The position numbers and the translations under genes were made by a program. Positions 1-60,376 of a stretch of DNA of 64,000 nt are shown here, piece by piece. Position 1 is the stretch's first letter. The number at the start of each line of letters is the position of its first letter. The notes beneath the pieces were generated by a model. That model saw only the letters and a program-made list of their open reading frames with translations. It made no database searches and was not told where the DNA came from. This DNA comes from Isoetes taiwanensis (Eukaryota > Streptophyta > Lycopodiopsida > Isoetales > Isoetaceae): positions 12,788,134 to 12,852,133 of the forward strand of contig JAJEKV010000028.1 in NCBI GenBank assembly GCA_021234155.1, written 5' to 3'.

Positions 1-617
1 ATCGGCCATGAATTTCCTAAATGCAGCTGCTGGAAAACCTTTGCCCTCCATCACCTTATTTAGTTTTTCCCAAAACAGTCTTTGTGCAATGTAATCTTCA
101 GTTTTCATGTCACACAAGGCAATAGTCTGTAGAGACCTTATCCTACATGAAAGGAATTACAAAAATGAAATATACAACTTATCTTGGATCAAAATAAAAA
201 GAAAGAACTTACTTCGGATCATAGACATGACACCCTAACGTTGTCCAAGTCGGAATACGTTTCACATGATCAAAATGAACCCAACTATGTTCCAAATCCC
301 CACCTGGACGCATTCTATTTACTAAATCTACTCCTGAGCCAGGCCCGACAGTGGACATCTTGAAGATATAACATCTTTCATTATCGTCATCATGTAACTG
401 GTAAGGAAACACTGAACCGTGAAAGTACTGGTATCTGCTATGTTGTTTCAAATATAAAATTTGAGAAAACTCATCCCCTCCTTTCTTGTTCTGAGCCTTA
501 GCTTTATGAATCCACCTTCGTAATCTGAAGTTCCAAAATTAATAATAAATGCCAGTTAAAGACATTGGATGTAAATCGCGAAAGTTAATACAATACCTTC
601 GTTGATTGTTCAATGGT
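1..617 (-). pseudogene. MULE-like transposase fragment (copy A), truncated at 617
   Basis: This segment repeats 8265-8881 at an offset of 8264 bases, and I saw only two differences between the copies (419/8683 and 430/8694). On the minus strand it holds the end of exon 1 (617-597), all of exon 2 (524-213) and the start of exon 3 (142-1, running off the window). Exon 2 carries the presumed first catalytic Asp (motif HFDHVKR). Unlike copy B, exon 2 here is open: it has CAG where copy B has TAG. The copy stops abruptly at 617, inside exon 1, where a histone-like sequence begins. It is either part of a second element extending off the left edge or a duplicated fragment. It cannot encode a full transposase within the window. 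Confidence 0.8.
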
Positions 618-895: not shown

Positions 896-1029
896 CATCC
901 TTTTGTAACCCTTTTTTGGTTGTTAATATATGAGTGTTTTAATATTTATGGTTATGAGTGTTTTATATTTATCTGTAATTATTTGTTATTCTATTTATTG
1001 CGGCTGTGTATTTATCTACTAGTGTTGGT

Positions 1030-1180
1030 CGTGGCCACGGTGCGAAAATGACTATTCCACATTCTGTGGGAAGGTCTATTTCGCGACCGCCGCCCAATCT
1101 TGAAAAATAGTAGTTCCAAAGTTTTTGAGGGGCAATTTAGACGATCAGAACTACGGTGCGTAAAACGCATATTCCACACC
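1030..1180. repeat. Degenerate palindromic repeat units
   Basis: Diverged pieces of the palindrome arrays at 1930-2135 and 3905-4345 occur here, for example GGCCACGGTGCGAAAA and TATTTCGCGACCG. They lie between the convergent 3' ends of the H3-like remnant and the minus-strand frame at 1384-1737. Confidence 0.5.
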
Positions 1181-1383
1181 TGCTGAAGAGAATGCTTATC
1201 TGAATTTAGAATCTACATGTAAGGAAAATGGCCAAGAGCTTTCCAAATCGAAAATGTATGGTAAATAGATGGATCACATGTATCACTTATGGTTACATAC
1301 TTAAAACTAGCGAATGTCTGAAATATTGTAGTAACAGAATTTAGAACTCATATAAGAGGCATAGCATACATGAATGCAGAAGT

Positions 1384-1737
1384 TCATTCGCAATCGGGAT
1401 CATCATGAGCAGATAGTTGAGTGATGCGATTAATCTCATAGACGCAACGCTCTGGAACCCTCCAAAGGTGGATAACAACACGATAAAACCCGTTGGAAGA
1501 ACGATTTCGACGCTCTGCTACTCCTTCCAGCCAGGGATCAAGGGGGATACCCCTCTGAGAACATCTATAAAGATCATTATATGTCATAGTGCAAGTAATG
1601 GAGTCCATATCTTCGGGACGAGGAGGCAAGGTAGACCCCCTGTAATAAGAATAACCAGGCTGAGACATAGCAAATGGATGCCTTCTCGCATTGAATGGAG
1701 TCGCATACTTATATCGAACAAAATTATTGACATGCAA
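1384..1737 (-). CDS. Hypothetical protein, about 117 residues
   Basis: This minus-strand frame has no family I recognise. The product is rich in Arg, Tyr and Pro, with short motifs such as PPRPEDMDS and RGIPLDPW. I see no signal peptide and no membrane segment. It overlaps a plus-strand frame of identical length, but the plus translation looks like an antisense shadow, whereas the minus reading has a more protein-like composition. It sits among other intronless frames and palindrome arrays (618-4345) and may belong to the same insertion. Whether it is expressed cannot be judged from the sequence. Confidence 0.3.
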   Translation of the reverse strand: MHVNNFVRYKYATPFNARRHPFAMSQPGYSYYRGSTLPPRPEDMDSITCTMTYNDLYRCSQRGIPLDPWLEGVAERRNRSSNGFYRVVIHLWRVPERCVYEINRITQLSAHDDPDCE

Positions 1738-1929
1738 TCAGAAAGCGGCGTTATTGGTTATATATACTGAGCATAATGTACAAAATACACATGTAAATAT
1801 AATGTAATGAGTGAAAGCAAGGTGAAAGAATTTATAGCTACTTAATCCAATAATGTTGAAGTATAATACTAATATTGTTGAAGTATAATACCAAGAAAGT
1901 TGAAGAATAATATCAATAATGTCAAGTAT

Positions 1930-2135
1930 TATACCCTTTGGTGGTGGGCGTAAATAGGCCCTTCAATCATTTGTAATCGAATGATTTCGCGACCGTGGCT
2001 CTGTGAAAAGATGGGCTGTAACTAAACTGGATCCACGTATTTAAGACTTTGTAGCCAATGCGGTCGAAATAGGCCCTTCAATAATTTGTAATCGAGGGCG
2101 ATTTCAAGACCGCGGGCTACGGTGCGAATATGACC
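1930..2135. repeat. Palindromic repeat array, left (minus-oriented)
   Basis: Units contain AGGCCCTTCAATAATTTGTAATCG and palindromic GC-rich cores (TTTCGCGACCGTGG, GACCGCGGGCTACGGTGCGAA). They are in reverse orientation to the array at 3905-4345 and lie just 3' of the minus-strand gene at 2335-2799, mirroring the right-hand gene and array. Confidence 0.7.
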
Positions 2136-2334
2136 ACAAATAGAACATTCACATGAGAAAATACAAGGAAAATGGTAGAAGAAATCATTCCATTATACTA
2201 AAAGTGTAAGATTGCCAAGATAATACATGACAATATAAGGATGTTACTTAATTACACGGAAATCACTTGCTTATATACTTAATTTCTATGAAAATCTTTA
2301 TACCAGTTTATACACATATTCCAATGGAGTATCT

Positions 2335-2799
2335 TTATCTATGATATGTACGTATTATGTGTTGTGTGCTATGTAGCCATAGGTCACGTGTATCCCAAGG
2401 AATTGTATCCCAGTCGGGGAATTTAGACAGTAACCACAGGATGTTGAAGTCAAGGGATTGGAATAGGAGCTTACCAATATCCACAAAAGATTTGTAATGG
2501 AAGTTGTAAAGTTCAATGAGGATATAAATCCTATTCTTTTCACTAGTAGGAATGACCAGAGGTGCATAGTGATCCAGAGAGCAGGCCATGAAACCATGGA
2601 AAAGCATGTCCTTCAACTGTTCTAGCCTATCTTCTAAATCTGAGGGGGGTTCAAGAAGTCCCAAAGCACTTAGAGTGATCCTTGCATGTGTCGAACTGAT
2701 CTCCTGCAGTGGAGGGAGATGACGAGTATAGCGATCGATAATGAAGTTGATCAGCTGCCTTGCAAGCTCTGTGGTCTCACCTTTGTTCCATGTTTTCAC
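2335..2799 (-). CDS. Hypothetical protein, 154 residues, with divergent paralogue at 3166-3761
   Basis: An intact intronless minus-strand frame that I cannot assign to a family. It is mostly helical in character, with ELARQLINFIIDRY near the N-terminus, LGLLEPP at about residue 50, and a conserved block IELYNFHYKSFVDIGKLLF followed by LSKFPDWDTIPWDTRDLW. The plus-strand frame at 3166-3761 shows the same order of blocks (ELAMELINFI, GILEPL, LIRTYYNEYNNFVELGPLFF, MTRYPIWW, WDMREL), so the pair arose by duplication. The two genes diverge from a CTTG-rich spacer, and each is followed by a palindrome array. There is no signal peptide. The protein-level similarity between diverged copies suggests it was once a real gene. 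Its function is unknown. Confidence 0.5.
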   Translation of the reverse strand: MKTWNKGETTELARQLINFIIDRYTRHLPPLQEISSTHARITLSALGLLEPPSDLEDRLEQLKDMLFHGFMACSLDHYAPLVIPTSEKNRIYILIELYNFHYKSFVDIGKLLFQSLDFNILWLLSKFPDWDTIPWDTRDLWLHSTQHIIRTYHR

Positions 2800-3180
2800 C
2801 TTGCTTTCACTTCTCGTGTTCTCACCTTGCTTTCACTTCTCACCTTGTGTTCCGTGTTCTTTGCTAATTGATCTTGATCCTTGCTTCTTGCTCCTTCATC
2901 TTCGTGCTACTTCATGCTACTTGGTCTTGTTCCTTGCTCTTGATCTTGCTACTCAATCTTGTTCCTTGCTTCCTTGCTCCATGATCTTCCTTGTTCCTTG
3001 ATCTTCTTGCTCCTTGATCTTCCTTGTTCCTTACTTCTTGCTACTTGATCGTGATCCTTGTTCCTTGCTACTTGATCTTCCTGTTCCTTGCTACTTGGTC
3101 TTCTTCCTTGCTTCTTGCTCCTTGTTCCTTGCTCTGCTCCTTGTTCCTTGCTCCATCGTTGATCCTTGCTTGCTTTTGCA
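2780..3180. repeat. CTTG/CTCCTTGAT low-complexity spacer
   Basis: Irregular tandem copies of CTTGCTCCTTGATCTTC-like units separate the two divergent homologous frames. Plus-strand frames here are Leu/Pro/Cys-rich and are repeat artefacts. The spacer would hold any shared promoter. Confidence 0.8.
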
Positions 3181-3761
3181 AATGATTGGACCCAATCCTC
3201 CCTGGGCTACTCCAGAAGGTCTGCAAGCATGCCGGGCATTACAGGCGGCCCTGAAACCGATGAGCTATTTGACCATTTCTTGGAGTGGAGGTTGCACCAC
3301 GATCCCACCAAGGAGCTTGCAATGGAGTTGATCAACTTCATTCGAGCGATTTGATTGTGGTCATGAGCCAGCGATGGAAATTAATCCATCGAATGTTATA
3401 GGAGACTTGCAATGAGGGGAATTCTTGAACCCCTCCTTACGGGACGAGATGCTCGCCAGTTGAGGCCTCTTCTTCGTCTTTGGTTATTTAGCACACTCTC
3501 TCGGATCAATACATATCGAGTTCATTCATGAAATTTGTAAGGGGACAGATGTATGGCCTTATTAGGACGTACTACAACGAGTACAACAACTTTGTGGAGT
3601 TGGGTCCGCTCTTCTTCCGTGAGTATCATCATGTGGAATTACTTTTTCTAATGACTAGGTACCCCATATGGTGGAAAGAATCAGGCTGGGATATGCGAGA
3701 GCTCTCGTTTCCTAACCCAGCTGCGTGGGTTACCCCTCGCAGGGGAAGGGGAAGGGGTTAG
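3166..3761 (+). pseudogene. Broken paralogue of the 2335-2799 protein
   Basis: Three plus-strand frame pieces together reproduce the minus-strand protein at 2335-2799. They are 3166-3354 (ending KELAMELINFIRAI then stop), about 3396-3530 (LAMRGILEPLL..RLWLFSTLSRI) and 3528-3761 (LIRTYYNEYNNFVELGPLFFREYHH..MTRYPIWW..WDMREL, with an Arg/Gly tail ending RRGRGRG). At least two frame changes and several stops lie between them. The Arg/Gly tail is absent from the minus-strand copy. The piece is probably dead, but its coding similarity supports the reality of the family. Function unknown. Confidence 0.5.
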
Positions 3762-3904
3762 GAACCTAGGGGAAGGTTACTAGGGACATACTGCCGTGGT
3801 CTCTAGTAACCTTTGCTACCTATCATACATAATTCATATGATACCGTGTTAATATGTTCTCTAAATATTCTCTAATATGTTAATATGTTCTCTAATATGT
3901 TAAT

Positions 3905-4345
3905 ATTCTCTAGCTACAGGCCCATATTTCGCACCGTAGCCACGGTGCAAATCGACTCATTTACAAATTATTGAAGGGCCTATTTCGCACCGTAGCCACG
4001 GTCGCGAAATCATTTCGATTACAAATTATTGAAGGGTTTATTTTCGCGACCGCGGGCTACTGCGGGCGAAATACGCGGATCCGGTTTTAGTTACAAAGCC
4101 CATATTTCGCGACCGCGGGCGGTGCGAAATCGATTTCAGTTATAAATTATTGAAGGGCCTATTTCGCACCGTAGCCACGGTGCAAAATCAACTCAGCCAC
4201 AAATTATTGAAGGGGCCTTTATTTTCGCACCGGTGGCTACGGTGCGAAATACGTGGATCGAGTTTAGTTATAGGCCCATATTTCGTACCGTGGCCACGAT
4301 GCGCAATACATGCATCCAGTTTACTTACAATACAGCATTTCGCAC
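3905..4345. repeat. Palindromic repeat array, right (plus-oriented), about seven units
   Basis: About seven palindromes spaced 50-75 bases apart, with core ATTTCGCACCGT-AGCC-ACGGTGCGAAAT or the variant TTTCGCGACCGCGGGC. They alternate with the direct motif ACAAATTATTGAAGGGCCTA. The array lies immediately 3' of the plus-strand pseudogene. Each unit could form a stable hairpin in single-stranded DNA or RNA. Confidence 0.8.
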
Positions 4346-4399: not shown

Positions 4400-5481
4400 T
4401 CAAGAGCTCTCAATACGGACATAACCTTTGCCTTGCCTACATCTCATTGATCTCCACTCCCTTGATCGCTTCCCTCTTTCTTTCCCGCTGGGTTTTTTGT
4501 CTAAACAACTTAGCAAGTGTTGATTCGCCTCGTTCCGTGATTTCTTCACCCGGTTGCACACGATCCATCCTTCGTAAAACCATTGACACATCTGCTGCAA
4601 GGAATTCCCAACTGAACCTCTGTGTTGAGTGAAACGGAAGAATGCATTCTTGGCTTGCTTATGGGACTTCTCCATTCCCTGTGTATTCCAAATTCCCAAG
4701 CTTCCATATTCCCTGACAAACCACACGCCATGTGCGAACAGAATATGGACATAGTGAGTCAAATTGGCCTCACCCCATGCCGTCAAGAAAGACTTAGTGA
4801 AGTTTGTGACTTGCCTCCGGAATTTGGCAACATCATTTTCCTGCACTACCTTTTTCTGCATTTCCTTTACCGGTCTGGAGAAATCACGCCATGCCTTGAT
4901 TTTCTTCAGGCGTGATCTACCACGATCATTTCGATCATCCTCAGCTGCAATAAGATCCTTGTAAGCTTCCCAAACACCAGATAAGTTCTCTTTCGCGGGA
5001 GGCAAAAACCTCTTAGCCTTTGAACCACCCATACTAGGTTTCAGGGGAACCTTGCCGGATACCTTTGGATCTTGAAGTATTTTGTAGTCCCACCATGAAG
5101 TCCCACATTAGATAGCACCTTTTCAACTTCATGCATGGCAGCTTCCCTAGAGCTTTGGGGTGATTTATTCCAAGCAAACAAGATACTCATGTAAACCATC
5201 TTGTCTATGATTCTCAAGAAAGCATGAAGGGTGCATATGTGTACTTTTTTTAACGGAATCGACAGAATTGGCATCAAGGTTGTGTCCTTCTCTTCTCTAT
5301 TTGGTGGCTCATCCTGGACACAGTCTAATGTACTCTTGTCCAACCTAGCTGAATCTCTTCTCGCATAGAGACAGTAGGGACAAGCATAAGTAGTCTTACC
5401 AGCACCATGCTTCATTACGTACATGCATTTTATTGTCTTCAAATCTGCAAAGAAGATGCCATTCAACCTTGTACTCACCAT
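4400..5481 (-). pseudogene. Transposase-like gene remnant, 3' part, frameshifted
   Basis: Two adjacent minus-strand frames make one protein. 5481-5041 contains CPYCLYARRDSARLD and LHAFLRIIDKMVYMSILFAW and ends in GGTTKYFK. 5032-4400 begins at GGSKAKRFLPP and contains HYVHILFAHGVWFVREYGSL, WNTQGMEKSHKQAKN and a basic tail. The second frame can be followed back across the stop as PKVSGKVPLKPS, so a single one-base indel near 5075-5080 separates them. The pattern of His, YGS, QG-EK and K residues resembles the C-terminal half of transposase-like proteins that I recall from plants and basal animals. I cannot name the superfamily. The 5' half, at 5700-6840, is more decayed. Confidence 0.5.
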
Positions 5482-5699
5482 ATCCAGGGCGCAAGTTTTT
5501 CTCCGATTCCGTGAGAGGCAATCATTGTGGGGATGGGTGTTTGATCAAAAATCCATTTCAAGATTATCTTGTGATTTTCCTCACGGTACTGAAATAAACC
5601 AACCCACCAAATGTGATCTTAATTTGGACGGACAACTTAGTAATACCATCTAGATTTGACTCTTCATTCCCTTTATTCAAAGCTCGTTCATTAGACTCG

Positions 5700-6840
5700 A
5701 GTGAAACCCTCTCGTACTTTCGCCTTTCACCAATTCCATTTCATCCGACTTCAAAACAATTCTTAGTTTGCAAACAAGACTCTTCTACCTTCATATCATA
5801 AATCGAACAAAAAAGTGAAGCATTCTACTTAAGTCTATCCAAAGAATTGTTATTTTCATTAAAGCGTAAAGTATCACCAAACTTCGACTTCTTCTTACCT
5901 TTGGTATAGGATGGCAATGTATCCAAATTGACACCTGCTTGGTCGGTGATACATATCACCAAGAAGCTCTTGCACTTGTCTGTTTCTCGATGACCTACAA
6001 GTCCTCACACTAGTCATCCTTGGTAGTAGAATAGTTTTGGTAATGCCTTGTTGTTTAAGGCCATCCTGCAAGCATCTGAACAAAGCAATGTAAGCTTGCC
6101 TACTTATTAGACATTGTCACACGGTTCTTTAATCGATTCGAGAGGTTTGACCGTTCCCCAACTCCTCGCGTAGATTGTTTGTACTACAGCTTTCCTAAGT
6201 TGAATGCTACCAGGAAGCTTTAACATTTCTAATACATCATCTTTAGTAACCAATTTCTTTAATAAACGGGCAATATTAGCAGGTTTTCTCTTATTTTTTC
6301 TTCGCGATTTGGATCAACAAGCTTCTTAATAGCCATGGCCCTTTTTTAAGCCTCCACCCCGAGGGGGCTAATATATTTATGGGCTTCGGGTTTCTTGCCC
6401 TCTCCCCCGATCCCCGGTGGAGTTCTTTTCAAGCGTTTGACTTCGCTTGTGAAGGGAATCATTTTCTTGCACAACCCTCTTCATTCCTTGCTCCGGTGAT
6501 TTCATCTCTCAGTCACCATTTTCTGATTTTCTACCTCCAATTCATTGAGCTTGCGGCATTGTTGAGACAGAAAGTAGTTCGCCTGTTGGAGCTGGTTAAC
6601 ATCCGATAAAACTTTGCAATTGAATCCATACAAGTAGTTATACATGGCACATAAATGTGGATCAAGATTACCCTTAACCAAATTATTACAAGAACCTAGT
6701 AACCCTTGGAGTGCGACTTTTTTTAAGTTTTTTCGAACTATGTTTTCATGTTTTTTTATAAGGATCATTTGTCGAATTGGGAAAATTGGGAACTCTGATA
6801 TGGAGAAAACTGAGTATATAAAATTGGCAGGAATCTTCAT
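5700..6840 (-). pseudogene. Decayed 5' portion of the 4400-5481 transposase-like gene
   Basis: Minus-strand coding traces appear in changing frames. 6840-6502 has LQGLLGSCNNLVKGNLDPH and a coiled-coil-like tail LSQQCRKLNELEVENQKM. Near 6350-6120 the strand encodes ANIARLLKKLVTKDDVLEML and AVVQTIYARSWGTVKPLESI. At 6083-5895 pieces such as CKSFLVICITDQAGVN lead into LDTLPSYTKG. Stops and frame changes occur every 50-100 codons. It lies head-to-tail behind the MULE-like transposase (6864) with almost no spacer, so it may be a second gene of the same element or a separate older insertion. GC-rich patches near 6340-6420 do not code. Confidence 0.35.
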
Positions 6841-6863
6841 TTTTATAAAATATCATCAACACT

Positions 6864-9800
6864 TTACATTTTTATGTTGGTATCTCTTCGGAGCTCAAAA
6901 ATTACATGCTTTCCGCATGTGATAATCTGTTTTCCAACTACTTCTGCTTCCATGTCATAACTTCGCTCTAGATTCACATCTGCATCGTTACTCAATCTGG
7001 CTCTTTTATTGACACGCCTTCCATTTCTAACTCTGACGAAACTACTCGCAGAAGGTGCATAAGAAGAAATGTCAGTGGAGTACTGATTAGATGTGGATGA
7101 TAGCCCTCTCACCTCGAATCCGCTACTCAGCAATACTTGCAATTCTTCATCCTTTATGTTGACTCCTGTAGCCACTGGCCAACTACCAGGTCTGCTAGGA
7201 GCACTGACTATATTGTAATCCGGATACCATGTATGTTGCACATTGGTTGAACAAAACCACATCATTTGTTCCTGCTCTCCATTACGATGTCTTCTAATCC
7301 CATAAAAAGAAGGGGCAACAGTGGATTTGTTCCCCTTGTTAATACCTGTTTGGCATTTACGACCAGTTTTTGAAACACGGCCCATACATTTCACTTCACT
7401 TCCAGCAAGTGTCCTCCTCAAGGCCCAACTAGCCTGATGAATATCTACTTCTATGACTCTAATTCGTGGACTGCTAAAATTTATTGTCCTTCTTGCCGAG
7501 TCATCAATTCTTGAACGTGACATAGTGTGGGTCACCTTATCTGGACGGTGACTTCCTGCTTCAGAATTAGTAATTGTGGATGTCTTTCTCAAGATGGTTT
7601 GGTTATTACCACCGGATCCAGGATTATATTCTGGCATTCCACTCCTAGATGCTTGTTCATTAATTATATTCACTCCCTGCATAGGGCTTATTCCAGAGCG
7701 AATACTTCTTTCCAATCTTCCCAACAAATTCGAAACAGTAGGCCCTGTTCCCAAGTGTCTACCCTCCAACCATGCTTTGTATTTTGAACTTTGCAAGAGT
7801 GCTTCTGTCATATCAAATACGCATGCATCATATAAATTCATAGTCTTTCTGTATCCCCTAGCTGCTAGCCAGCTTCCGTGCTTGGATTCAGACATGTTAG
7901 TGTGAGGGACATGTATGGCACTGGCTATGTCCATTCCTGTAAGCATATAATTTCCCCATCTGCTTACCCTCTGATGCCACCAAGACAACCAGGAACCTAA
8001 CGACTTTATGTCCACCTCGTCGGCTTTTCCAGGCCACCAATCAATGGTTTCATGATAAATATCTTCTGCAATTTCAATAGTTTCTGCATTTCTCCATTTC
8101 CTACATAAATCCAGATGCTGGATACGGTAGGCCTCATAAATGTATTTATTTGTGTGACGTTGCAAGCACTGCTCAAAATGAAATTGGCATGAGCGTTCTC
8201 CACCTAAAATTTCCTGGCCATTATTGAACACATCTCGTACTGCTGTCCAGTTAGCCTGTGCTTCATCGGCCATGAATTTCCTAAATGCAGCTGCTGGAAA
8301 ACCTTTGCCCTCCATCACCTTATTTAGTTTTTCCCAAAACAGTCTTTGTGCAATGTAATCTTCAGTTTTCATGTCACACAAGGCAATAGTCTGTAGAGAC
8401 CTTATCCTACATGAAAGGAATTACAAAAATGAAATATACAACTTATCTTGGATCAAAATAAAAAGAAAGAACTTACTTCGGATCATAGACATGACACCCT
8501 AACGTTGTCCAAGTCGGAATACGTTTCACATGATCAAAATGAACCCAACTATGTTCCAAATCCCCACCTGGACGCATTCTATTTACTAAATCTACTCCTG
8601 AGCCAGGCCCGACAGTGGACATCTTGAAGATATAACATCTTTCATTATCGTCATCATGTAACTGGTAAGGAAACACTGAACCATGAAAGTACTAGTATCT
8701 GCTATGTTGTTTCAAATATAAAATTTGAGAAAACTCATCCCCTCCTTTCTTGTTCTGAGCCTTAGCTTTATGAATCCACCTTCGTAATCTGAAGTTCCAA
8801 AATTAATAATAAATGCCAGTTAAAGACATTGGATGTAAATCGCGAAAGTTAATACAATACCTTCGTTGATTGTTCAATGGTTCTAGTTTTTGAAGAAATT
8901 TATCCACACCCGCAGAGTCCATTGTTTGAAAAGCCGAGATTTCCTCTTCAGAAATTATATTACCATTCACAAAATCCATTGCAAGATCGTGTTGTGTTTC
9001 TCGGGCTCCCTTCATAGTTGATGGTGTATTTGCACCTCTAGTGTTTAAAAGTGCCTTGGCCATATACATACTTTCTCTTGACTCTGCAACTCTGATAGGA
9101 TGATCATGACTTCCGATGTGAAAGGCCAACCTCGTAAAACTTGTGCATGTGCACTGGCTTATGCATTCTGGCTTATGCATTCTGGTTGTTCCCTACAAAA
9201 TATACAATTAAGTGAACCATTGACCATAGATAGTTCTCCTATAAATGGTGTGTTCCTTAAGGTTCCTCTCCATTGCACCTCATTTGGTTTTCCTGTTCCC
9301 AATAAACATTCGCAACTCATATTCTTGCATTGTAGGTGGCCACAACAGTGGGCCAATTTCACACAACCTGGAAAACTTGGAACAACTGTATGAGAAGGGT
9401 CTGACCAAACATGAGGATCCATGTTCTGTTCCATTCCTGACATGGGCTTCGAACATTTTTTTTCACTTGGGAGCTCGTAAACTACAGTACCATTATAAAA
9501 CTCTGGCAAATGGTTCACCCTTACAGATCTTCCGACCTCTAGTGCCCAACTCTTCAGCTTACTATTGCTACCATTTGTGATCAAGTAATCGAACATTGAC
9601 CTCTCACTTATATTGGAATCTATAGATTTAGGAGAGTCCACAGATATGGGACATGCTGGAGAACTGATAATTTCAGGCATACCAGTCACTATAACACGTG
9701 AGCCAAATTCTCTATCAATCACATAAACTCCATCAACATTCATCTTCACAACGTATGTCAAAGTATCATCGTCATTTTCCGCCGACACTTGTTGCAACAT

Positions 9801-9932
9801 CACACTACCAGGTTGAAACCCAAAACATTGTGAAACTAGATTGTTACTCACAAGGCAAATACCATTGACATCAAATGGTAACTGCATAGATTGCAGTTTG
9901 CCTGGAGAAGTCATGCTAAGCACGGCATCCAT
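6864..9932 (-). pseudogene. MULE-like DDE transposase, three exons, with two disabling lesions
   Basis: Exon 1 is 9932-8861, exon 2 is 8788-8477 and exon 3 is 8406-6864. The donors read GTATTG and GTAAGT, and the phases match. The reading frame totals about 970 codons. Exon 1 has a Cys/His cluster (CCGHLQCKNMSCECL) and an RLAFHIGSHDHPIR block typical of these proteins. Exon 2 has HFDHVKRIPTWTT (first Asp). Exon 3 has CDMKTED, FMADEAQANWTAVR (second Asp), CQFHFEQCLQRHT (the Cys-His pair between D2 and E) and NMSESKHGSW (Glu). This order fits Mutator-like transposases that cut and paste DNA in the nucleus. Two lesions are visible: a 14-bp tandem duplication at 9156-9183 shifts frame in exon 1, and exon 2 has TAG at 8694-8692. 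Its neighbour is the divergent ParB/methyltransferase gene. Assignment to MULE rather than another DDE group is by motif layout only. Confidence 0.7.
9156..9183 (-). other. 14-bp tandem duplication causing a transposase frameshift
   Basis: GGCTTATGCATTCT occurs twice in tandem. Read on the minus strand, exon 1 runs into NA-stop after PECISQ. With one copy, the frame would pass directly from PECISQ into CTCTSFTRL. Confidence 0.9.
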
Positions 9933-10745
9933 TTCTCACTAACGCAAATTCCTACGAAAACAATTCCTGTAAGTTGATACAAAACGAGTTCAAGTAACGT
10001 TATTTTGTTTTAATACAAAGCATTCACGAAGATCAAGCCGTAATATATGGACATTTTCGTAACCCTCCAATTTGTATTTAAATTTCTCCACATAATGATG
10101 CATCCTAATAAATAATAAGCTAGATCTTATAGTCTAGCCTAGTGTAAAGGAAATCACACGTTTTGTTATTTAAAAATAAAACGGCTACTTAGCAACGACC
10201 ATTAAAATCAGTATATATATCAAATGCTTTAGTTATGTTTTTGCTTTGGGCGCTTACAAGTTGTCGAGTTGCTTACAAGTTTGCGTTTACAAGGCTTCTG
10301 AGGTAGTATGCCCTTATAGTTGTACATCTTAAAGTAGTACATTTTAAAGTAGTACATTTTAAAGTAGTTGTACATCAAATGTAGTTGTATATTAAATATA
10401 GTTATATAATTGTCGAGTTGCATACTTTCAACCTTAGCATTGCTTTCTACAATAAGTTTTCCACATTTCCGACATTTATGTTGTCCACATTTTCAAAAAA
10501 CGGCATCCCTTTCTGAAACATCTGAAACATCTGAAAAAAAACGAATCCCTTTCTGGCTTTTTTGATACGAAGTCCGCTGTATCCGGACCAGAAGGCTTTT
10601 CTGATACCAATCCGGACCAGAAGGAGGAGCTTGCAGCCGGACTCTTATCCAGTTTAAATCATGCTCTATACACAAACTGCCCTTAGATCCGGCTCCGGCT
10701 TCAAGCACTGTAAGTTTTACTGTCTTTTTTTTATTCGAAGCTAGT
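9933..10745. other. AT-rich divergent intergenic region, left part
   Basis: No gene seen. It contains three tandem copies of a short AAAGTAGTACATTTT-like unit at 10330-10365 and a partial inverted repeat around TCCGGACCAGAAGG at 10575-10625. It is expected to hold the transposase promoter on the minus strand. Confidence 0.6.
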
Positions 10746-11221
10746 AGGGGACGGCGCCGTTGCCCTTAGAAACTCAAAATCTCAAACCCTTAGATATCTC
10801 AGGAAGACATAGATTAGGGGACGGCGCCGTTGCCCTTAGAAACTCAAAATCTCAAACCCTTAGATATCTCAGGAAGACATAGATTCGAAGGGGACGGCAC
10901 CGTTGCCTTGGAAATGGCAGTGGCAGAAATTTTGTCAGATCGGTTTATCCAGAAATGTTAGTTTTGTCTTATTCTATCACATCCGATTTTTAAACTTAAT
11001 CACTGTTCAAATGCCATCCAATGAAAGGGGACGGCACCGTTGCCTAATAAATTGTATGATTTTGAATCCGGAAATGACAGCAGATTTTAGTCAAGATTTT
11101 CACTTTTCAAATAACGTACTGCCATCCAATACAAGGGGACGGCACCGTTCCAGAAGATTGGACTGAATCCAAAACAGATATGCAGTTAGATCATGCTGAC
11201 ATTTCAAGAGGACGGCACCGT
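10746..11221. repeat. Six-copy GGGGACGGCRCCGTTGCC motif array
   Basis: The near-palindromic core ACGGCRCCGT starts at 10751, 10821, 10894, 11031, 11139 and 11212. The first two copies (ACGGCGCCGT, a perfect palindrome) sit in an exact 70-bp tandem duplication; the later four read ACGGCACCGT in unrelated flanks. The array lies between the divergent transposase and methyltransferase genes, where a shared operator or transposase-binding site would be expected. Confidence 0.85.
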
Positions 11222-11424
11222 TGCCTTATTTTTGTCTGGAGACTTTCATTGTTGCCATATATCAGATTTTAATAGATTTTCGTTTTGTCTTCTTCAATAA
11301 CATTTTGTCTTATTCTGCTTTAGATATTCAAGAAGATATTGTCTTATTCAAGAAGTTATTGTCTTATTTTAAAATACAGAATTGTTAAACATGAATTGTA
11401 TTTTCTTGCAGTGTGGCCTCTGTT

Positions 11425-14400
11425 ATGGTAGAAACAAGGAACAGTCAACCAGATTTGCAGCCTACTAGACTCGTCACTCCTAAAAGAAAGCCAAGAGGTC
11501 GTCAGACACATCGAAGTTTGGCCATGTCGTTTGAATCTACCGCAGATGCACTAGAGACAAAAGAAGGTCCTGCAGATATGATTGTTGACATAGACAAAGA
11601 GGCAGTTGCTACGCAGTTGGATGACAGTACAATCGTTATGGAAGCAGAAGAGGGAGCAGCACTTATTGAGAAAGATATCAGTGCAGCAGATAATACTAAA
11701 GTAAACAGAAAAGAGAAAGGACAGAAAAAAGGGCAGAGTTCAGGATCTGATGATGATGTTCTTGGTGACTTATCTGCGTCTTTTACTGTGGAAGTGATTT
11801 CAGAAACCTTGGATGCACTAGCATTGAAGAAGGATACAGAACCACCAATGATTCCATTATGTCGGATTAGGATAAATGAGGAGGTCCGCAAAGTGGGTTC
11901 AAGAGCGCAAATACTAAGAGATACCTTCAGACAGGATGGGTATGTGAAATCCAAGGGGAACTTCATTTTATCTATGGCTACAGCAAAAGGTGATGTTATT
12001 CCAGTGACTGATGAGGACATTGATGGTTGGGACTCGTATTGGCAAGAAGTGAATAAGGCATTTGAAGAGTCATTGGTAAATAACAAAGACTGGTCAGATT
12101 TGAGTGGTAGAATGTTTCTTTGCTGGGATGGCAACCATCGAACTGAGGCATGGATGTCTGAAATCAACGGTACATACAAACATGTCAAATCCAAACATAT
12201 TTGTGTTCGTGCTGATTTTATAAACATCGACGAGCCGAACGAGACAACACTAGTTGCTGCAATGAACAGAATAAACTTGTGAGTTTTTTAGCTTTTCTAT
12301 TCTTATATGCATATCATTCTTGCTCAGTTGCAGAAATTGCTTGTTGTAGACTGAACGAGATTGGTGTTGTTCGTACAAGTCTACAAGATACTCTAATGAT
12401 TGTACCACGAGTTGCTCTTGCCAAACCCGGATAAGTATATGAAGGAATTATCTCGGTGAGTTAAAAGCCTGAGAGGACAAGGGAAATGATTGGGTCAAAC
12501 GAGCCTTGGTATCCTCTCACAAGATTGGCCTATGCAAAGATATTATATAACGTAAGTTTAATGTTGTTTCTGCTGTTATGTTCCTTTTGTTGTTTAGCAT
12601 TCAATAAATTAATTACTAAAAATCTATTGATGCAGGCTTCAATGGTTAAGGACATTGAGGATTACATAAAATCAAATCATGAAAACATTTCAGAAGTTGA
12701 TGTCTTGAAGGCAAATGCTGAAAGGGAAGTGAGGTGAAAGTGGACAACTAAAATGCAAAAATATCTAGCCATTGTGAATCCTAGTCTTGGGAATGTTTGG
12801 TTACGCCATGTCACAACCAAGGATTTAGAATCTAAAGGAGTTAATGTGACAGTAGAAAAGCTTTTGTTTATGGTCAGATCAAAGGTGCAGAACAGTGTGA
12901 GAGATAATTGGATTAAGATAATGACTAGCACATCTCAGTTTGGAAATTATCAGAAGATACCAACTAATGACAAGAGCTTCAATTCTTGGGTAAAAAAGGA
13001 AACATGGCTAGAGCATTTACTTACCAGATCATGTGACTTGGTGAAGGGAGCAATTGAACAACATAATTTGCAGTTGTTAATACCCCGGGACTGTGATGTG
13101 GAGACATGGTACAGAACATTCAAAGCTAGAAACCGAGTTGAAATGTTTAAGCATTGGGAAAGACATATGCAATCTACAGTCAATGTTTCTGAAGCTTTTG
13201 AAGTGCAAAGGACAGCTATGTGAGTTGCATACAGATATTTCAAGTATTTGGTTCATATTAAGTGCATGGAATCAATGCATCCACAGATACAGATATGGGT
13301 GTCTCACACAGGTGCTGACTGTATTTATAGTCCAAAAGGAAATCTAGACAGGGGAGGTGGAATGCATAAATGGGAAAGAGAAAATTGTCCCTGGTGGATT
13401 GATTTCCCTTTAGGGTCTTATCCAGAAGAAGAAGAGTCAGATTACAACCGGATCCGTGGAGGGCAGAAAATTATGGTTGATCCAAATGAGGAAAAAGTGG
13501 ATGTTGACAAAAGAAAGAGAAGCAGGAAAGATAAGCCAAAAGTATCTGATGCAACTAATGAGGAGAATGAGGAAGAGGATCTTATCGTCGATTGTCAAAC
13601 ACCTCCACGAAGGCATATTCCTGATGTTATGCAAGTTCAAAAAGAATGTCATACTGAATTTCGAGTTGTCCAAGCAGATATATGTGTGGTCTCCAGGGCT
13701 GTAACATTAGGCGGCCATGAAGTGTTTACATCATTGAGAAATTTAGGAAAGGAGGTCAAGAAAACATCCATGTACTACAGGAATGGAAAAGTCAGAGATT
13801 GGGGCGCTAACTTGGTTCTTGTTGATCTGCCAACAAATGAGCCTACAAGAAGTGACTCAAACGAAACACCATACTGGAACAAACTTGACACACAACTAGT
13901 AGATGGATGTTTCAGTTTGGGTGAACTTTGTTTGGATGACAGTGGATGGTTAGTGTGCATTAGCAGTTTTGAGTTTCAAAAGATGGTAGACATGGCAGCC
14001 AGAAAAAAGAACCTTGAACTAGGAAGATCATACAAATTGATAGGGGACAGACCATTCAGTTACCATAAAGATAAATACGGTATTCTATCAAGAAATGTGT
14101 TGGTAGTATCTCTCTATAAAAGAGCTGGCACAAATCCGATATTTAAATCCAAGGAGGTATTTAGTCAACATGAGTTGGACTATAGCAGTGAACTTTTGAG
14201 GCATTACTTAGGGCCGGGTGACAGAATGAGATCAGCCAAACATCATTCACTGCGGCATAATTTAGAGAAGAGCACCCGCTTTAACGAGTTCTTACTCCAG
14301 CTGCTATGTGAATATGGTGATTATGTCGTGGATTTATTGACAGGTACAGGGTCTATGGTTGATGCGTGCGCACTCCGAGGTCTGCATTGCTATGCAATGG

Positions 14401-14751
14401 ATTTTGATGCTGATATTTGTGATGTGGTCAAAACACTTCGAATGTCTACATTCAAAAAACCATTAGCAGAAGGGGCTCCTTCTATGCAGCTGGATTTGGA
14501 GGAAGAGGATGAGATAATCACAGATGTGATTGAAGAACCAGCTGATTAGTTAGTGAGCTAAAATTTGTATTTTTTGCTTACATTAACCATCCATACCAAA
14601 ACTAACTGTGTTTGATTTACATTGCAGTTTCTTGCCCGTCTACGCCGAGCAACATGCCACATTGTTGTCCTCAATGTCAAGTATTGAGCAAAAAGTAAAG
14701 AAACGCAAACGATGTCTTTACATCGATGACGAGGCAGAAGAAGATACTTGA
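11425..14751 (+). pseudogene. ParB/Srx-box plus N4/N6-type DNA methyltransferase gene, multi-exon, damaged
   Basis: The first ATG is 11425; the preceding TTGCAG may be the acceptor of an upstream intron. Exon 1 (to 12278) begins basic, then has an acidic linker, then about residues 143-245 carry PLCRIRI..RAQILRDTF and WDGNHRTEAWM, a ParB/sulfiredoxin-type G-H-R--A box. An intron at 12279-12349 joins TT|A. Later exons include 12636 onward (after a phase-0 intron at 12552-12635). The C-terminal domain (13700-14450) has LVLVDLPTN (13805-13835) where N4/N6 methylases have a DPPY motif, then GDYVVDLLTGTGSMVDA (14322-14370), the SAM-binding motif, with D at GLHCYAMDFD. This IV-before-I order is that of beta-type amino-methyltransferases. 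An intron at 14549-14627 leads to a last exon ending in a KVKKRKR-like basic motif and an acidic tail. Lesions: TAA at 12432 from one extra base, and in-frame TGA at 12735. The TGA at 13221 may lie in an intron. A role in modifying element DNA is inferred. Confidence 0.6.
14549..14627 (+). other. Last intron of the methyltransferase gene
   Basis: It runs GTTAGT..TTGCAG. The apparent stop TAG at 14547-14549 is made of the last two exon bases plus the G of the donor. Splicing gives TA+T (Tyr) and an open last exon to the TGA at 14749-14751. Confidence 0.65.
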
Positions 14752-15113
14752 TCTGAAAATACATAATACATATGTCGTTTATGCATTGGATATAGTATTT
14801 GCAATTATTGCAGTGACATAAATTACTATCTAGATTGTTATTGTTTTATCTAGATTTGCAGTAACATAAATTACTATCTAGATTTATTTTATTGTTTCAT
14901 GTTGTTATTATCTAGATTTGTTATATTTGTTTCATGTTGTTCTATTTGTTATATTATTTCATGTTGTTATTATACCAACGTTGTTCTATGATTCGGTTGT
15001 TTAAGTCTACGGTGCAAGGTGCTATCTCTTTTGGAGGCAAACATTGTTTCCTGTGGATTCTTGGAATATTAAGAATATTCCATAAAAACTCAAAAAACAT
15101 GTTTCAAAAAAAC
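14752..15113. repeat. AT-rich 3' flank with TATCTAGATTTG repeats
   Basis: Repeated ACATAAATTACTATCTAGATT and TTTCATGTTGTTAT units lie at 14815-14965. No gene seen. Bases 15075-15125 are weakly similar, in inverse orientation, to 6715-6770. Confidence 0.6.
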
Positions 15114-15600
15114 CTAAAAAAAATTTCCCCCTAACCCTTGCTGTCCCTTGCAAGCAAATTCAATAAGACCGGATGCAGAGTGGAAGTTTGGATGGGCTCG
15201 AGTGAAAGGATCACAAGGATACAATTGGCCTTTAGCCCAGAGGTCTATATTCATGGCTCCAGAAGCTCGCAATGCATCTTCATCTATTGGTTGTTTCCAA
15301 GTGAACTTATTCCTGTAAGCCAGGCATCCTTTTGGCACTTGCACTCTAAATTGACCATCGGAATTAGTTTGATCCTGAAACAGAAGTATTAGAACCAAGA
15401 ACACTCAAAGGAATGCAATGACAACTCGGAAACCAAATACCTTTGCCAATGACGTTGCAAAAGACCGAGACCCAGAGCGGAGCTTAGAATTAGGAAGATT
15501 CTTGCCAACAAACAGAGCGAAATTGAAAAATTTCGCTCCATTTGCTGGCAAGAATCCGCCATAATTCGAATTCAAACAATGCTTGGGCGCGATGGCAAGA
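15114..15600 (-). pseudogene. Two-exon minus-strand gene remnant of unknown family
   Basis: Exon B (15374-15114) encodes DQTNSDGQFRVQVPKGCLAY, then KFTWKQPIDEDALRASGAMN and LWAKGQLYPCDPFTRAHPNF, ending GLGGNFF. It is preceded by an acceptor CTGTTTCAG and, across a 66-base gap, by a donor AAG|GTATTT. The upstream frame (15441 to about 15600) stays open and reads ..FVGKNLPNSKLRSGSRSFAT before SLAK at the splice. RSFATSLAK resembles a mitochondrial presequence end, but this is weak. I do not recognise the family. The exon A sequence overlaps a 60-base DNA hairpin (15497-15556). The upstream start and the end of the gene are unclear. Confidence 0.35.
15497..15556. repeat. Perfect-length inverted repeat (28 + 4 + 28)
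   Basis: GATTCTTGCC..GAGCGAAATT, loop GAAA, AATTTCGCTC..GGCAAGAATC. The arms match at about 25 of 28 positions, and partial pairing continues outward through GAATTAGG/CCATAATTC. Confidence 0.85.
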
Positions 15601-16457: not shown

Positions 16458-18039
<1,582 letters not shown>

Positions 18040-19960
18040 GAAGGTGTCACATAGGCTCCAACAAGCCACCCTGGCTCAAACATGCCATGTAGGCCCCAAC
18101 ATGTCACCTAGCCTCAAACATGCCACCCAAGGTGGCTCAAACATGCCACGTGGGCTCCAACATGCTACATGGACTCCAACATGCCACGTATGCTCCAACA
18201 TGCCAAGGTGGCTCAAGCATGCCAAGGTGGATCCAACATGCCACCTTGGCTCAAATATGCCACGTGGGCTCCAACATGCCAAGGTGCATCAAACACGCCA
18301 CCTACGCTCCAACATGCTAAGGTGGCTCCAACATTCCAATTCAAACATTAATGGCCTAAAAGTGCCATTTCTAATGAAATATATTTTAATGGTGTAATTG
18401 ATTTTAGGTGTTATTTTTTATGGCTAATTAAGGGTTGTGCCCCTAGGATCTACCATGCCACTTGGTTGGCTCCAACATGCCATGTGGGCTCTATCATGCC
18501 ACGCGGGCTCCAACATGCCAAGGTGTCTCAAATAGGCCACGTGGGCTCCAATATGCCACCTAGGATCCAACATGCCAAGGTGGCTCAAACACGCCACGTA
18601 GGCTCCAACATGCCACGTGGGCTCCAATATGCCAAGATGGCTCAAATCCAACATGCCAAGGTGGATCCAACATGCCAAGGTGGCTCCAACATTCCAATTC
18701 AAACATTAATGGCCTAAAAATGCCATTTCTAATGAAATAATTTTTAATGGTTTAATTTATTTCACATGTTATTTTTAACTATTCAAATGTTGTGCCCCTA
18801 GGATCCCAATGTACTACGCAGGCTCCAACATGCCATAAGGGCTACAACATGCCAAGGCGGCTCAAACATACCACGTGGGCTCCAACATGCCACCTTGGGT
18901 CCAACATGCCAAGGTGGCTCAAACATGCCACGTGGGCTCCAACATGCCAAGGCGGCTCAAACATGCCACCTAGGCTCCAACATGCCAAGGTGGCTCCAAC
19001 ATTCCAATTCAAACATTAATGGCCTAAAAATGCCATTTCTAATGAATTTAATGGTGTAATTGATTTCATGTGTTATTTCTTATGGTTCAAATTTTGTGCC
19101 CCTAGGATCTACCATGCCACCCGGTAGTCTCCAACATGCCACGTGGGCTCTAACATGCAACACGAGCTCCAATATGCTAAGGTAGCTCAAACAAGCCACG
19201 TGGGCTCCAACATGCCAAGGTGGCTCTAACATGCCACCTTGGCTCCAACATGCCAAGGTGGCTCAAACATGCCACGTGGGCTCCAACATGCCACCTTGGC
19301 TCCAACATGCCAAGGTGGCTCAAACATGCCACGTGGGCTCCAACATGCCAAGGTGGCTTAAACACGCCACTTAGGCTCCAACATGCCAAGGTGGCTCCAA
19401 CATTCCAATTCAAACATTAATGGCCTAAAACTGCCATTTCTAATGAAATATGTTTTAATGGTGTAATTGATTTTTTATAGTTCAAATGTTGTGCCCCTAG
19501 GAACTACCATTCCACCTGGTTGGCTCCAATATGCTATGTGGGCTCTAACATGCCACATGGGCTCCAACGTGCCAAGGTGGCTAGGTGGCTCAAACATGTC
19601 ACCTAGGTTCCAACATTCAGGTAGCTCAAAAATGCCAAGTGGGCTTCAACATGCCTGACTCAAACACGCCACCTAGGTTCCAACATGCCAATGTGGCTCC
19701 AACATTCCAATTCAAACATTTATGGCCTAAAAATGCCATTTCCGATGAAATATTTTTTAATGCTTTAATTGATTCTATATGTTATCTTTAATGGTTCAAA
19801 TGTTGTGCCCCTAGGATCCACCATGCCACCTGGTTGCCTTCAACATGCCACGCGGGCTCTACCATGCCATGTGTGCTCAAACATGCCATGTGTGCTCCAA
19901 TATGCCACCTAGGCTCCAATATGCCAAGGTGGCTCAAACATGCCACCTAGGCTCCAAAAT
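18040..19960. repeat. Higher-order minisatellite, CATGCCAMGTGGGCTCCAA units
   Basis: Eighteen-base-class units alternate between CATGCCAAGGTGGCTCAAA, CATGCCACGTGGGCTCCAA and CATGCCACCTAGGCTCCAA. They are grouped into five blocks, each closed by the same 120-130-bp spacer (ATTCCAATTCAAACATTAAT, GGCCTAAAA, TGCCATTTCTAATGAAAT, GTGCCCCTAGGAT). Spacer starts are near 18333, 18691, 19001, 19402 and 19702. Frames on both strands (NMPRWLKHATWAP types) are repeat translations. Confidence 0.95.
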
Positions 19961-20982
19961 GCTCCCTCCCTCCCTCCCTCTCCCTCTCTCTCATTTGGTC
20001 TGATACCCTAAAGCTTCTCCTTTTCTCTGTGGAATTTTGGCAGCATGGATTGTAGTCAGATATCTTTTTTGGCCATGTCCTTCCATCCACGTCCTACTGG
20101 AGTTTTCATGGTGGTGGACAACACTGCCGCCAATACCTTACAGAACCTCCACTGGCTGCATCAGTACGATTGCCTATTGTCTTGGTCTGCATTTCAGGCA
20201 AACTTTCTACTCACACGTTGGGATGTACCCATATGGGAGGTCACAGAAAATTGCCTCTTATGGTGGGGATTGCTGTTACGGAAAGGAAGGCTTGAGATTG
20301 TCATGGAAATATTTGTAAAGACAAGCACTTTGTTAGCTCAGTATATTGCCTCCTCTTAGCATCATAGCCCCTCTCATTGCCAAATGGGTGGCACCTGCAG
20401 GTTCCACAGCCCAATTCGGGTCGTACATGATGTTGGCTTTGAGATAAGTTGCTCTATCCTAAAGTGTTTGTACTTTAGTGGCAGGTTATCTATAGGTGCG
20501 TGCATGTTAATATCTTTTGGCATCGCTATGATCTTCGCATATCTGCATGGCCGCTCTATCTTTCAGACGTTGAGACTCTTGAGCATTGTCTTTTTGCTTT
20601 CGACCAGCGTGGTCCTGACTATAGGTTTTATTTTTATTTTTTATTTTTTTTATTTTTTTTTACAGTGCACTAAATTGGCAATGCATCCACTTGGCTTCCT
20701 ACCCCAATACAAAGCCTCCATGTAGACATAGGGCATTCCACCTTGATTTTAATTGGCTCCTATTGCGGACGTCACATTTTTTAGGGTATCTACTCATCTG
20801 CTCGCATTATTATTGTTGTGGCTCAGGCTAAGATATTGATGGCCTACAAATTACTCCCTTGAGCGAGAAGTGAGGAAACATATTTAGATTTAGCATCTTT
20901 AAATTGGTTCTAATCATTAGTCTCCCTGAAGCTTGTGTCCCCGTGACATATTCTTGTGCTTATACAGTGTACATTCCATAAA
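19961..20982. other. CCCT tract and gene-less retroelement-like stretch
   Basis: A (CCCT)n/(CTCT)n tract at 19964-19992 is followed by plus frames near 20037-20725 with no recognisable family (Trp-rich, ending in a poly-T-derived Phe run at 20620-20665). Possibly an old retroelement body. Not supported as a gene. Confidence 0.4.
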
Positions 20983-45300: not shown

Positions 45301-45450
45301 TGTCCTGTTCTAGCATGTAAATCCCCTATTAGAATCATTGTCCCCTGTTCCTTCCATTTCATCATGCTCTCCCCCAGGTCTAGCAGTTCTAGCTTGTCAC
45401 TGTTTGGCGGGTAATATGCTATGATCAGAATTAGGTCAAACATTAGCATA
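42386..45450 (-). mobile_element. Non-L1-clade LINE, 5'-truncated (minus)
   Basis: Minus frame 45449-43776 encodes the C-terminal part of an AP-type endonuclease (YYPPNSDKLELLD, GDLHARTGQ where GDFNART is usual, NAKGELLLEVC, VDYVIMNGQ, SHRPI where SDH is usual) and then RT (HKAPDLYGL, RWTYNRIIPLHKGG, GNYRTIMASSIFAKWFGKVL, FRPEHSTTGHLVTLR, CFVDFRKAFDTVPREKL, GVKQGCPLSP). After one frame change and a TAG it continues (43698-42514) with YTDDLGMMA, KTGLTVNLAKTKIVIFGHKN and a C-terminal C..C..H.NECPIY knuckle. The wording (VDFRKAFDTVPR, YTDD, KTK) differs from the L1-like LINEs here (KLDFAKAYDSV, FADD) and resembles the Jockey/RTE/RandI-type clades; I cannot fix the clade. The endonuclease active-site changes suggest it is dead. 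The 3' T run is at 42388-42398. Confidence 0.75.
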
Positions 45451-45633
45451 GATTATGCCAAACATTAGCATGCATGCAAATTCACAGCAATCTTTTGCAA
45501 AATATCTTAGGCCTAACAATTTTGAGAAAATATTTCTTTGTAAGGCATTAGGAAATATTCCTTTGTAAGGCTTTTGAGAAAAATAAGTGAATTTTTATTT
45601 GCAGATATTACATGGGCTTCTTCTTGCTTGAAA

Positions 45634-59178: not shown

Positions 59179-60376
59179 TGACCTGCATCCTTCTTCTTGC
59201 ATTCTTTGAACAAAGTTTGATCATAGGTCACGGTTTTCTCAGCTCAAGAATCTATGATTAACATTTTGTTATCCTTACTTTGCAAATCATTTGAAATATT
59301 CAAAGCAATTTCATTTCTTACCTCAGCAGTATCATCCTCCTCCTCCTCTTCATTTGCATTTGATTCTTTGACCACATTTACAGATGGATTGACCCTGTAT
59401 GCAGTTCTTCCTCTAGTGAAACTTCCCCTTGAATTTGCAGACCTTCCTCTGCCTCTGCCTCTTCCTACAGTCCCTCTTGGACTTGGACAATTAGCAGCTA
59501 CATGCCCTTTCCCATCACAATTAAAATACTTTATAATTTTACCTTCATTAGGACAATCATACTTAAGATGTCCATATTGGTTGCAATTATAGCATGGGCC
59601 GAGTTTGTCCTTGCTTGGTACTCCAGTTTTCTTTGCTTTCCCTGCATACAAAATTTCAGCAGTGTCATCTTCATAACTAACACACTTTTGTTCAAATTCT
59701 GTCCTTATCATCTGAATAGCATGCTCTTTGGACCTTGCCACATCGTAGATTAATGTGGCCAGTTCATTATTATGGGATACAGATCTTGCAAGAGACAAGA
59801 TTTGATATTGATCATTAAAAATTATGCCAGCTCCCTCCAAATCTGCAATTATAGAGTCAAATCTTTCCAAAAACTCAGTCATATTATCCTTCTCAAATAA
59901 TTTCAACTTCCTAAGTTGTTTTTCCAACATGTCAATTTGGGATGAGGTTTTAATCTCATACTGACTGACCATATATTCCCACATCTCTTTTGGATTCATA
60001 CCCCTCAGTTTCAGTTTGATAGCAATACCAACCTTGCTTGTTATAATGGCTTGTGCTTCCATCACTTTGAATGCATCATCATGTTCTGTACTTACAGCAA
60101 CTCTTGTGATTTCAGGGACATTATTGCCTCCTCCTTCAACTGATGCCTCACTTGTCTCCCCTACAACAGAATTTTTGGATCTTACCATTGTCGAGGCTCT
60201 TCTGATATTTTCTCCATCTCCATCTATAAGATACCACAGGTTCTCAAACTCAAGAACTTGTCTAATTCCCTGTTTCCAAATTTGAAATCCACTAACTCCT
60301 TTAAACACTTCAAAAGATGTTAGTAAATTTGCTCCAAATCTAGTAGACATTGTTGCAATGCTGGCTCTGATACCAA
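59179..60376 (-). mobile_element. Ty1/Copia retrotransposon: leader, gag and start of protease (minus)
   Basis: The 368-codon gag (60350-59244) starts MSTRFGANLLTSFEVF. It has the Copia capsid wording (MWEYMVSQYE, LKLFEKDNMTEFLERFDSII) and then CYNCNQYGHLKYDCP, a complete CCHC zinc knuckle, and YFNCDGKGHVAANCP, a second knuckle whose first Cys is Tyr. An Arg/Gly-rich tail follows. The frame ends LIIDS-stop exactly where the protease active site D-S-G is expected; the same frame continues AEKTVTYDQTLFKECK. The LINE poly-A tail abuts at 59178, so pol is missing here. The primer site TGGTATCAGAGCC (minus strand, 60375-60363) marks the leader, and the LTR begins at 60377. Inactive. Confidence 0.85.
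60363..60375 (-). promoter_or_regulatory. Copia primer-binding site (initiator Met-tRNA)
   Basis: The minus strand reads TGGTATCAGAGCC, just downstream of the LTR end and 5' of gag. Confidence 0.9.

Follow-up and report, generated by a model that had tools for sequence, protein, structure and literature searches.

A 64,000-bp stretch of the genome of the lycophyte Isoetes taiwanensis (contig JAJEKV010000028.1, positions 12,788,134 to 12,852,133; hereafter the window, with positions counted from its first base) contains a decayed member of a family of two-gene Mutator-like elements (MULEs). The element is a DNA transposon of 8,423 bp at 6709-15131. One of its genes encodes a transposase, and the other, here called gene 2, joins a ParB-type box to a predicted methyltransferase fold. 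The two genes form a conserved divergent pair in the genome, gene 2 is under purifying selection, and a set of near-palindromic repeats lies in front of it. Our analysis moderately favors self-recognition by gene 2 through these palindromes, coupled to regulation of the element or to its protection from silencing.

Element ends and genome-wide pairing of the two genes

The original prediction had placed a transposase gene on the minus strand and a ParB-box/methyltransferase gene on the plus strand, head to head across about 1.5 kb, and had proposed that both belong to one element. Open reading frames (ORFs) and exons were found in this arrangement. In the sequence on either side of the genes, the best-scoring inverted repeats lie at 6709-6759 (plus strand, the element starting with GAGTGCGACTTTTTTT) and 15082-15131 (minus strand, the reverse complement starting with GGGGGAAATTTTTTTTAGG), with a local alignment score of 42. 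Directly outside this pair, the 9 bp TAACCCTTG occur on both sides in direct orientation and without a mismatch (6700-6708 and 15132-15140); MULEs duplicate 8-11 bp outside their inverted repeats (PMC6446971). Because the inverted repeats and the flanking duplication lie outside both genes, the element spans 6709-15131 and encloses both, and the extent first proposed (6864-14751) was too short at either end. The two flank zones have 53 nine-base repeats in common, and the next-best end pair flanked by one of them scored 18. None of 300 block shuffles reached 42 when the duplication condition was applied (maximum 33), and without that condition the maximum over three sets of 60 shuffles was 38. 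Five of the 7,889 nine-base pairs that lie 1-20 kb apart in the whole window scored at least 42: apart from the element ends, these come from a palindromic array around 1,985 and 4,105, counted in four registers that overlap, one of which scored 43. At the left end, two copies elsewhere in the genome, L099 and L100, terminate at the identical base as the window copy.

Copies were sought in the window's own assembly (1,658,258,908 bp), which contains at least 106 matches to the methyltransferase piece and at least 91 to the transposase exon. Twenty methyltransferase copies were fetched with their surroundings and six more at 5.9 kb each, giving 27 loci together with the window. In 16 of the 20 fetched copies (the exceptions are L102, L104, L110, and L115), the transposase is found upstream and on the opposite strand; it was also seen in three of the six shorter ones. 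Both ends were located in nine of 21 copies, the window included; with copy ends adjusted by up to six bases for the scoring, seven of the nine carry a perfect 9-bp duplication, and those of L103 and L112 match at 8 of 9 bases. The matches listed for the two genes merged to 80 and 83 loci and included 30 transposase/methyltransferase pairs within 15 kb. All 30 pairs are divergent and none has another orientation, compared with 0.12 expected under uniform placement. They involve 29 distinct loci on each side at distances of 134 bp to 13 kb, and a few of the long-distance pairs may join neighboring elements. Of the transposase loci without a listed partner, three were inspected, and all three showed a ParB match and an at least partial methyltransferase match in the expected orientation. 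The pairing holds even in L114, L116, and L117, whose methyltransferase and transposase have identities of 34-36% and 35-49%, respectively. Head-to-head co-occurrence and shared termini, which the original prediction had named as checks, were both found, and the terminal repeats, duplications, and pairing led us to conclude that the transposase gene and gene 2 belong to one element.

Palindromic repeats in front of gene 2

Six copies of AGGGGACGGCRCCGTTGCC, absent from the features listed in the original prediction, lie at 10746-11225 between the two genes. On the plus strand they occupy 10746-10764 (AGGGGACGGCGCCGTTGCC), 10816-10834, 10889-10907, 11026-11044, 11134-11152 (2 mismatches), and 11207-11225 (1 mismatch). 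No copy with up to three mismatches was found elsewhere in the window, and none in 100 shuffles. Three of the six are inside a 70-bp tandem array of 2.4 copies; the fourth and fifth have further bases in common on their left side, and the surroundings otherwise differ. Read in the orientation of gene 2, the core CGGCRCCG occurs at 58 sites in 18 of the 27 loci, compared with 0.9 expected from block shuffles. Measured from the ParB start, which was extrapolated in several loci, 57 of the 58 sites lie 175-1,197 bp upstream, and the core occurs once in the 55.6 kb of the window outside the element. The flanks of the core differ among the subfamilies of gene 2: AGGGGA/TTGCC in subfamily A (27 sites), TAGCAG/CACCC in B (5 sites), GGGGG/TCCCC in B2 (8 sites), CTGGT/ACTG in C (14 sites), and CTGAA/TTTAT in D (4 sites), with a further version, AGG/TCCT, in L127 (3 sites). 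The subfamily D loci (L115, L118, and L119) showed no recognizable transposase in the fetched stretch, yet four palindromes are present in L119; possibly another transposase serves this subfamily.

The parS sites to which ParB proteins bind are palindromic, and for this reason the palindromes are a plausible natural target of gene 2. VANC is a transposon protein that uses DNA motifs to distinguish its own element from the host. Since the palindromes may be the target of gene 2 and the element has an outline like that of VANDAL elements with VANC, we propose a form of self-recognition in which the gene 2 protein would bind the CGGCRCCG palindromes in the divergent promoter and thereby mark the promoter of its own element. 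Once bound, the protein would sustain expression of the element in the face of host silencing, or would control the level or the assembly of the transposase.

Two other explanations of the repeats deserve consideration. Gene 2 might take no part in silencing and act as a transposition helper, binding the repeats in the manner of an enhancer and assembling the complex of the transposase. The persistence of the pairing with the transposase at deep divergence and the presence of second ORFs in other MULEs, as described in PMC6446971, are consistent with such a helper, which we nevertheless consider rather unlikely, since the repeats lie in the divergent promoter and not at the termini, a location that fits regulation better. 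The repeats might also be sites for a host transcription factor, unrelated to gene 2. AP2/ERF proteins favor CCG cores, and some subfamily versions of the repeat contain what we take to be cores resembling the GCC box and the dehydration-responsive element. The near-palindromic symmetry of the repeats, their arrangement in arrays, the change of their flanks with the subfamily, and the ParB-box gene directly downstream make this explanation an unlikely one.

Domains of gene 2

Gene 2 extends over 11425-14549 of the plus strand, possibly to 14751; the introns originally described are present and have GT-AG boundaries. Its exon at 11425-12279, aligned in 13 rows including the window, encodes the box MFLCWDGNHRT[ED]AW, in which GNHR (12130-12141) is conserved across loci. 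GNHR is retained in 20 of the 22 loci that have residues at this position (L101 reads GNH-stop and L121 has no box), and five of the 27 loci have no residues there. Between the two sides of the deep split in the family, identity in this domain is 53-55%, and the domain is more conserved than the methyltransferase. A box of the G-x-H-R type together with a hydrophobic/Asp pattern, both present in gene 2, is what we take to be a feature of ParB/sulfiredoxin proteins. The conserved box and the phage precedent of a ParB_N domain fused to PF01555 (phage protein L004) suggest that the N-terminal domain is of the ParB/sulfiredoxin type.

The main exon (12637-14549; in-frame stops; ORFs 12738-13223 and 13224-14549) carries the methyltransferase-fold domain, with motif IV (DLPT, 13824-13835) before motif I (DLLTGTGS, 14331-14354), the S-adenosylmethionine (SAM) site, in the order originally reported. 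The window protein matches PF01555 with 19.2 bits (E = 0.0012), under the cut-off of 26.7 bits, and phrog_3008 with E = 2.7e-5; three relatives exceed the PF01555 cut-off (L117, 34.8 bits; L114, 33.1; L120, 37.9). A profile of phage-type methyltransferases was built from 84 of 87 hits, three being left out for length or as second hits of one locus. The methyltransferase piece alone aligned with this profile over motifs X-I-II (probability 95.6%, E = 1.1e-8), and a profile of 13 family rows gave a 185-column alignment with it that begins at motif IV (97.3%, E = 2.3e-11), with motif IV preceding X-I as in beta-type enzymes. The profile comparisons and the Pfam matches support the assignment of the C-terminal half of gene 2 to the beta-type amino-methyltransferase fold.

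Protein database searches found no relative of the methyltransferase piece or of the joined gene 2 pieces, scans of viral contigs, prokaryote genomes, and plasmids gave no match, and the ParB exon had none in phages. A tblastn search of phages with the methyltransferase piece returned 130 records, with a best E of 6e-3 among the matches listed; the best 30 of them comprise 25 annotated as methylase or methyltransferase, 3 hypothetical proteins, and 2 without annotation. Gene 2 looks derived from a phage or bacterial pool of ParB-methyltransferase proteins.

Motif IV, originally given as DPPY, is D[LF]PT in 25 of the 27 loci, while one of the other two reads ELPT and the second is broken; its Asp and third-position Pro are retained, and the catalytic pattern [DNS]PP[YFW] does not occur in these loci. 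Decay from DPPY to DLPT in the window copy alone was considered and rejected, because D[LF]PT is family-wide. In the phage set, 81 of the 84 sequences have Y and 2 have W in the column matching the aromatic residue of motif IV, a count that took all 84 rows and not the 79 preselected by the word DPPY. In one MAFFT run, made with a trimmed query, motif IV came out at the wrong place, and the family profile located it without trimming; 12 MAFFT runs with a shuffled N-terminal part put other residues at its position, twice with a D-P start.

The missing catalytic aromatic residue makes classical methylase activity doubtful. We consider it improbable that gene 2 encodes a catalytically active DNA amino-methyltransferase that places N6-methyladenine or N4-methylcytosine in the element or in host DNA. 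Such an enzyme would account for the conservation of SAM motif I and the aligned fold under purifying selection and for the retained Asp and Pro of motif IV, and PMC8885841 describes amino-methyltransferases derived from bacteria that function in bdelloid rotifers and have been reported for Marchantia as well. According to the same source, replacement of SPPY by APPA abolished the activity of the rotifer enzyme. The conservation of the SAM loop speaks for some function of the site, and the methyltransferase fold may act as a SAM-binding or DNA-contacting module, not necessarily as a classical DNA methylase.

Selection on gene 2

The ratio of nonsynonymous to synonymous substitution rates (dN/dS) was calculated over the methyltransferase exon for 13 pairs, one of which was not computable. 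The ratio is 0.11-0.22 in five pairs among the window, L099, L103, L105, and L107, which represent the nearer subfamilies, 0.16 for L114 and L117, and 0.30 and 0.32 in two distant pairs, which are saturated. Over the ParB exon it is 0.08-0.42 in six of seven pairs, the seventh not being computable. We conclude that gene 2 is under purifying selection; in the window, both genes are lightly decayed to a similar degree, as originally described, each with a few stops and a frame break. MULEs tend to acquire fragments of host genes (PMC6446971), and it is nonetheless highly improbable that gene 2 is such a fragment hitch-hiking in a Pack-MULE, given that the ParB and methyltransferase parts occur together, at a constant position relative to the transposase, and under purifying selection across copies that are 33-96% alike.

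Several observations weigh against the proposed self-recognition by gene 2 or the features on which it draws. The ParB/sulfiredoxin assignment, made in the original prediction, is suggested by the conserved box and its setting; no match to this fold was obtained for the domain in Pfam, the PDB, or profile comparison. A single-sequence structure prediction had low confidence (predicted local distance difference test, pLDDT, 33.4), and a second model (pLDDT 62.9; predicted template modeling score, pTM, 0.65) matched DNA methylases, a result that is partly circular and supporting only because its alignment included 51 phage methylases. Four close pairs in families C and D have higher dN/dS values (0.29-0.41), and L115, L118, L119, and L122 have no transposase match within the stretch seen. 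Furthermore, the core site is absent from nine of the 27 loci. In four of these (L100, L102, L110, and L112) nothing aligns to the part of the element in which the repeats would lie; L115, L116, L117, and L122 retain the ParB gene and lack the core, and L118 shows neither the core nor a ParB match. The core is also absent from two loci outside the 27, L126 and L128. A second, different tag may exist in the loci that keep the ParB gene without the core.

Transposase gene

The transposase gene lies on the minus strand at 6864-9935. Its last exon (6864-8420, a single ORF) contains the blocks FMADEAQANW, with the second catalytic Asp, and NMSESKHGSW, with the Glu; CQFH between them gives a DDE arrangement with C-x2-H between the second D and the E. 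The upstream coding piece (8440-8802, delimited by intron boundaries, with one in-frame stop) carries HFDHVK, whose Asp we take to be the first catalytic one, as we presume for the C-x2-H pattern, both by reading of the sequence. The 5' coding pieces (8803-9935; ORFs 8803-9192 and 9159-9935) include a Cys/His-rich region, and the 9159-9935 piece was matched in 13 of the 20 fetched copies. Two database proteins match the transposase (E = 1.0e-59 and 2.6e-53) and have the D and E blocks in common with it, Gln replacing the His of C-x2-H in one of them, P0006. The two blocks are present in most of the genome copies that cover those positions.

The relative L117 has a frame of 600 residues with a C-terminal SWIM finger (PF04434, 19.7 bits; cut-off 19.6) and a DUF5094 match under the cut-off, and the database relative P0005 has a SWIM finger at 17.7 bits, also under the cut-off; this tail is absent from the window copy. 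SWIM fingers are widespread among MULEs, though some lack them. No Pfam transposase model, such as PF10551, matched the transposase at E up to 1, its joined pieces at E up to 10, or L117 at E up to 0.5, in searches whose HMMER filters limit the detection of weak matches. Because no such model matched, membership of the MULE superfamily rests on the motif pattern, the SWIM finger, the inverted repeats, and the 9-bp duplication.

Surroundings of the element

The left edge of the window (1-617) is 99.7% identical to 8265-8881 of the transposase gene, with two differences, which by eye are C/T changes in CG and CHG contexts of the transposase strand. The transposase match that it edges is 75% identical overall with nine stops, and the high identity ends abruptly at 617; we read 1-617 as a patch or a mosaic transposase copy. 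The truncated copy is abutted by an open frame at 617-841 for the C-terminal portion of a protein that matches Pfam Histone (E = 1.3e-9) and resembles H3 by eye. At 1028-4345, a different palindromic repeat (TTTCGCACCGTAGCCACGGTGCGAAA type) forms arrays, some mutually inverted, beside another transposase-like gene; they may belong to another element with palindromic tags of its own. Transposase-like ORFs recognized by eye lie on the minus strand at 4400-5544, of which 4400-5107 weakly matches RAG1 recombinase (E = 0.019, under the cut-off). To the right of the element are an inverted repeat at 16774-17960 (arms of about 500 bp, 74% identical) and a large array of a 19-bp unit (CTCCAACATGCCACGTTGG type) at 18045-19963. 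ORFs at 42514-45452, 55575-57929, and 59244-60389 resemble, by eye, reverse transcriptases of long interspersed nuclear elements and a gag protein with CCHC knuckles.

Relation to known systems and significance

The element resembles the VANDAL elements of Arabidopsis, compared here by description (PMC5735166), in being a MULE with a 9-bp duplication, an extra gene, and short, subfamily-specific noncoding motifs that are repeated in one orientation, partly as tandem repeats. The same source describes VANC as recognizing short one-orientation motifs in noncoding VANDAL regions, which evolve by tandem repetition, and as causing loss of DNA methylation. Gene 2, known here from its sequence, differs in having a ParB-type box and a methyltransferase fold, and its motifs are near-palindromic. 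The N4CMT of bdelloid rotifers (8s9m; PMC8885841) is encoded by a host gene, has a chromodomain and SPPY, and acts on transposons, whereas gene 2 is owned by the transposon.

Phage fusions of ParB_N with N6_N4_Mtase (L004 by Pfam; L003 by its 44% identity to L004) have the same order as gene 2, a ParB-type box followed by a permuted methyltransferase, and it is to the methyltransferase part that the 185-column profile match belongs. They differ from gene 2 in mostly having DPPY and in a ParB_N domain that fails to align with the gene 2 domain; ParB_N was detected only in L004 among three phage proteins scanned. MuDR, with mudrB, is itself a two-gene MULE. The two-gene layout, the duplication of 8-11 bp, and the SWIM finger, seen here in relatives, are common to MuDR/mudrB and the second-ORF MULEs described in PMC6446971. 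The extra ORFs covered there include PMD, SET, ovarian tumor, and MutB, and a methyltransferase is never named in its main text. The superfamily and the idea of a self-recognizing accessory protein are known; in the open-licence literature searched, no ParB-methyltransferase in a plant transposon, and no MULE combining a ParB-box/methyltransferase-fold gene with palindromic tags, was found described.

Somewhat more tentatively, we suggest that a lineage of eukaryotic cut-and-paste transposons took over a ParB-methyltransferase of the phage or plasmid type, that parS-like self tags diversify with it, and that it forms a module for self-recognition and anti-silencing, or for a new chemistry involving D[LF]PTN, independent of VANC. 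The conserved D[LF]PTN raises the question of whether a DNA-methyltransferase fold can work without the classical catalytic aromatic residue. The subfamilies offer natural pairs of protein and tag for the study of specificity. If gene 2 binds the palindromes, it would represent a second solution to self-recognition by transposons, built from the bacterial toolkit for partition and methylation.

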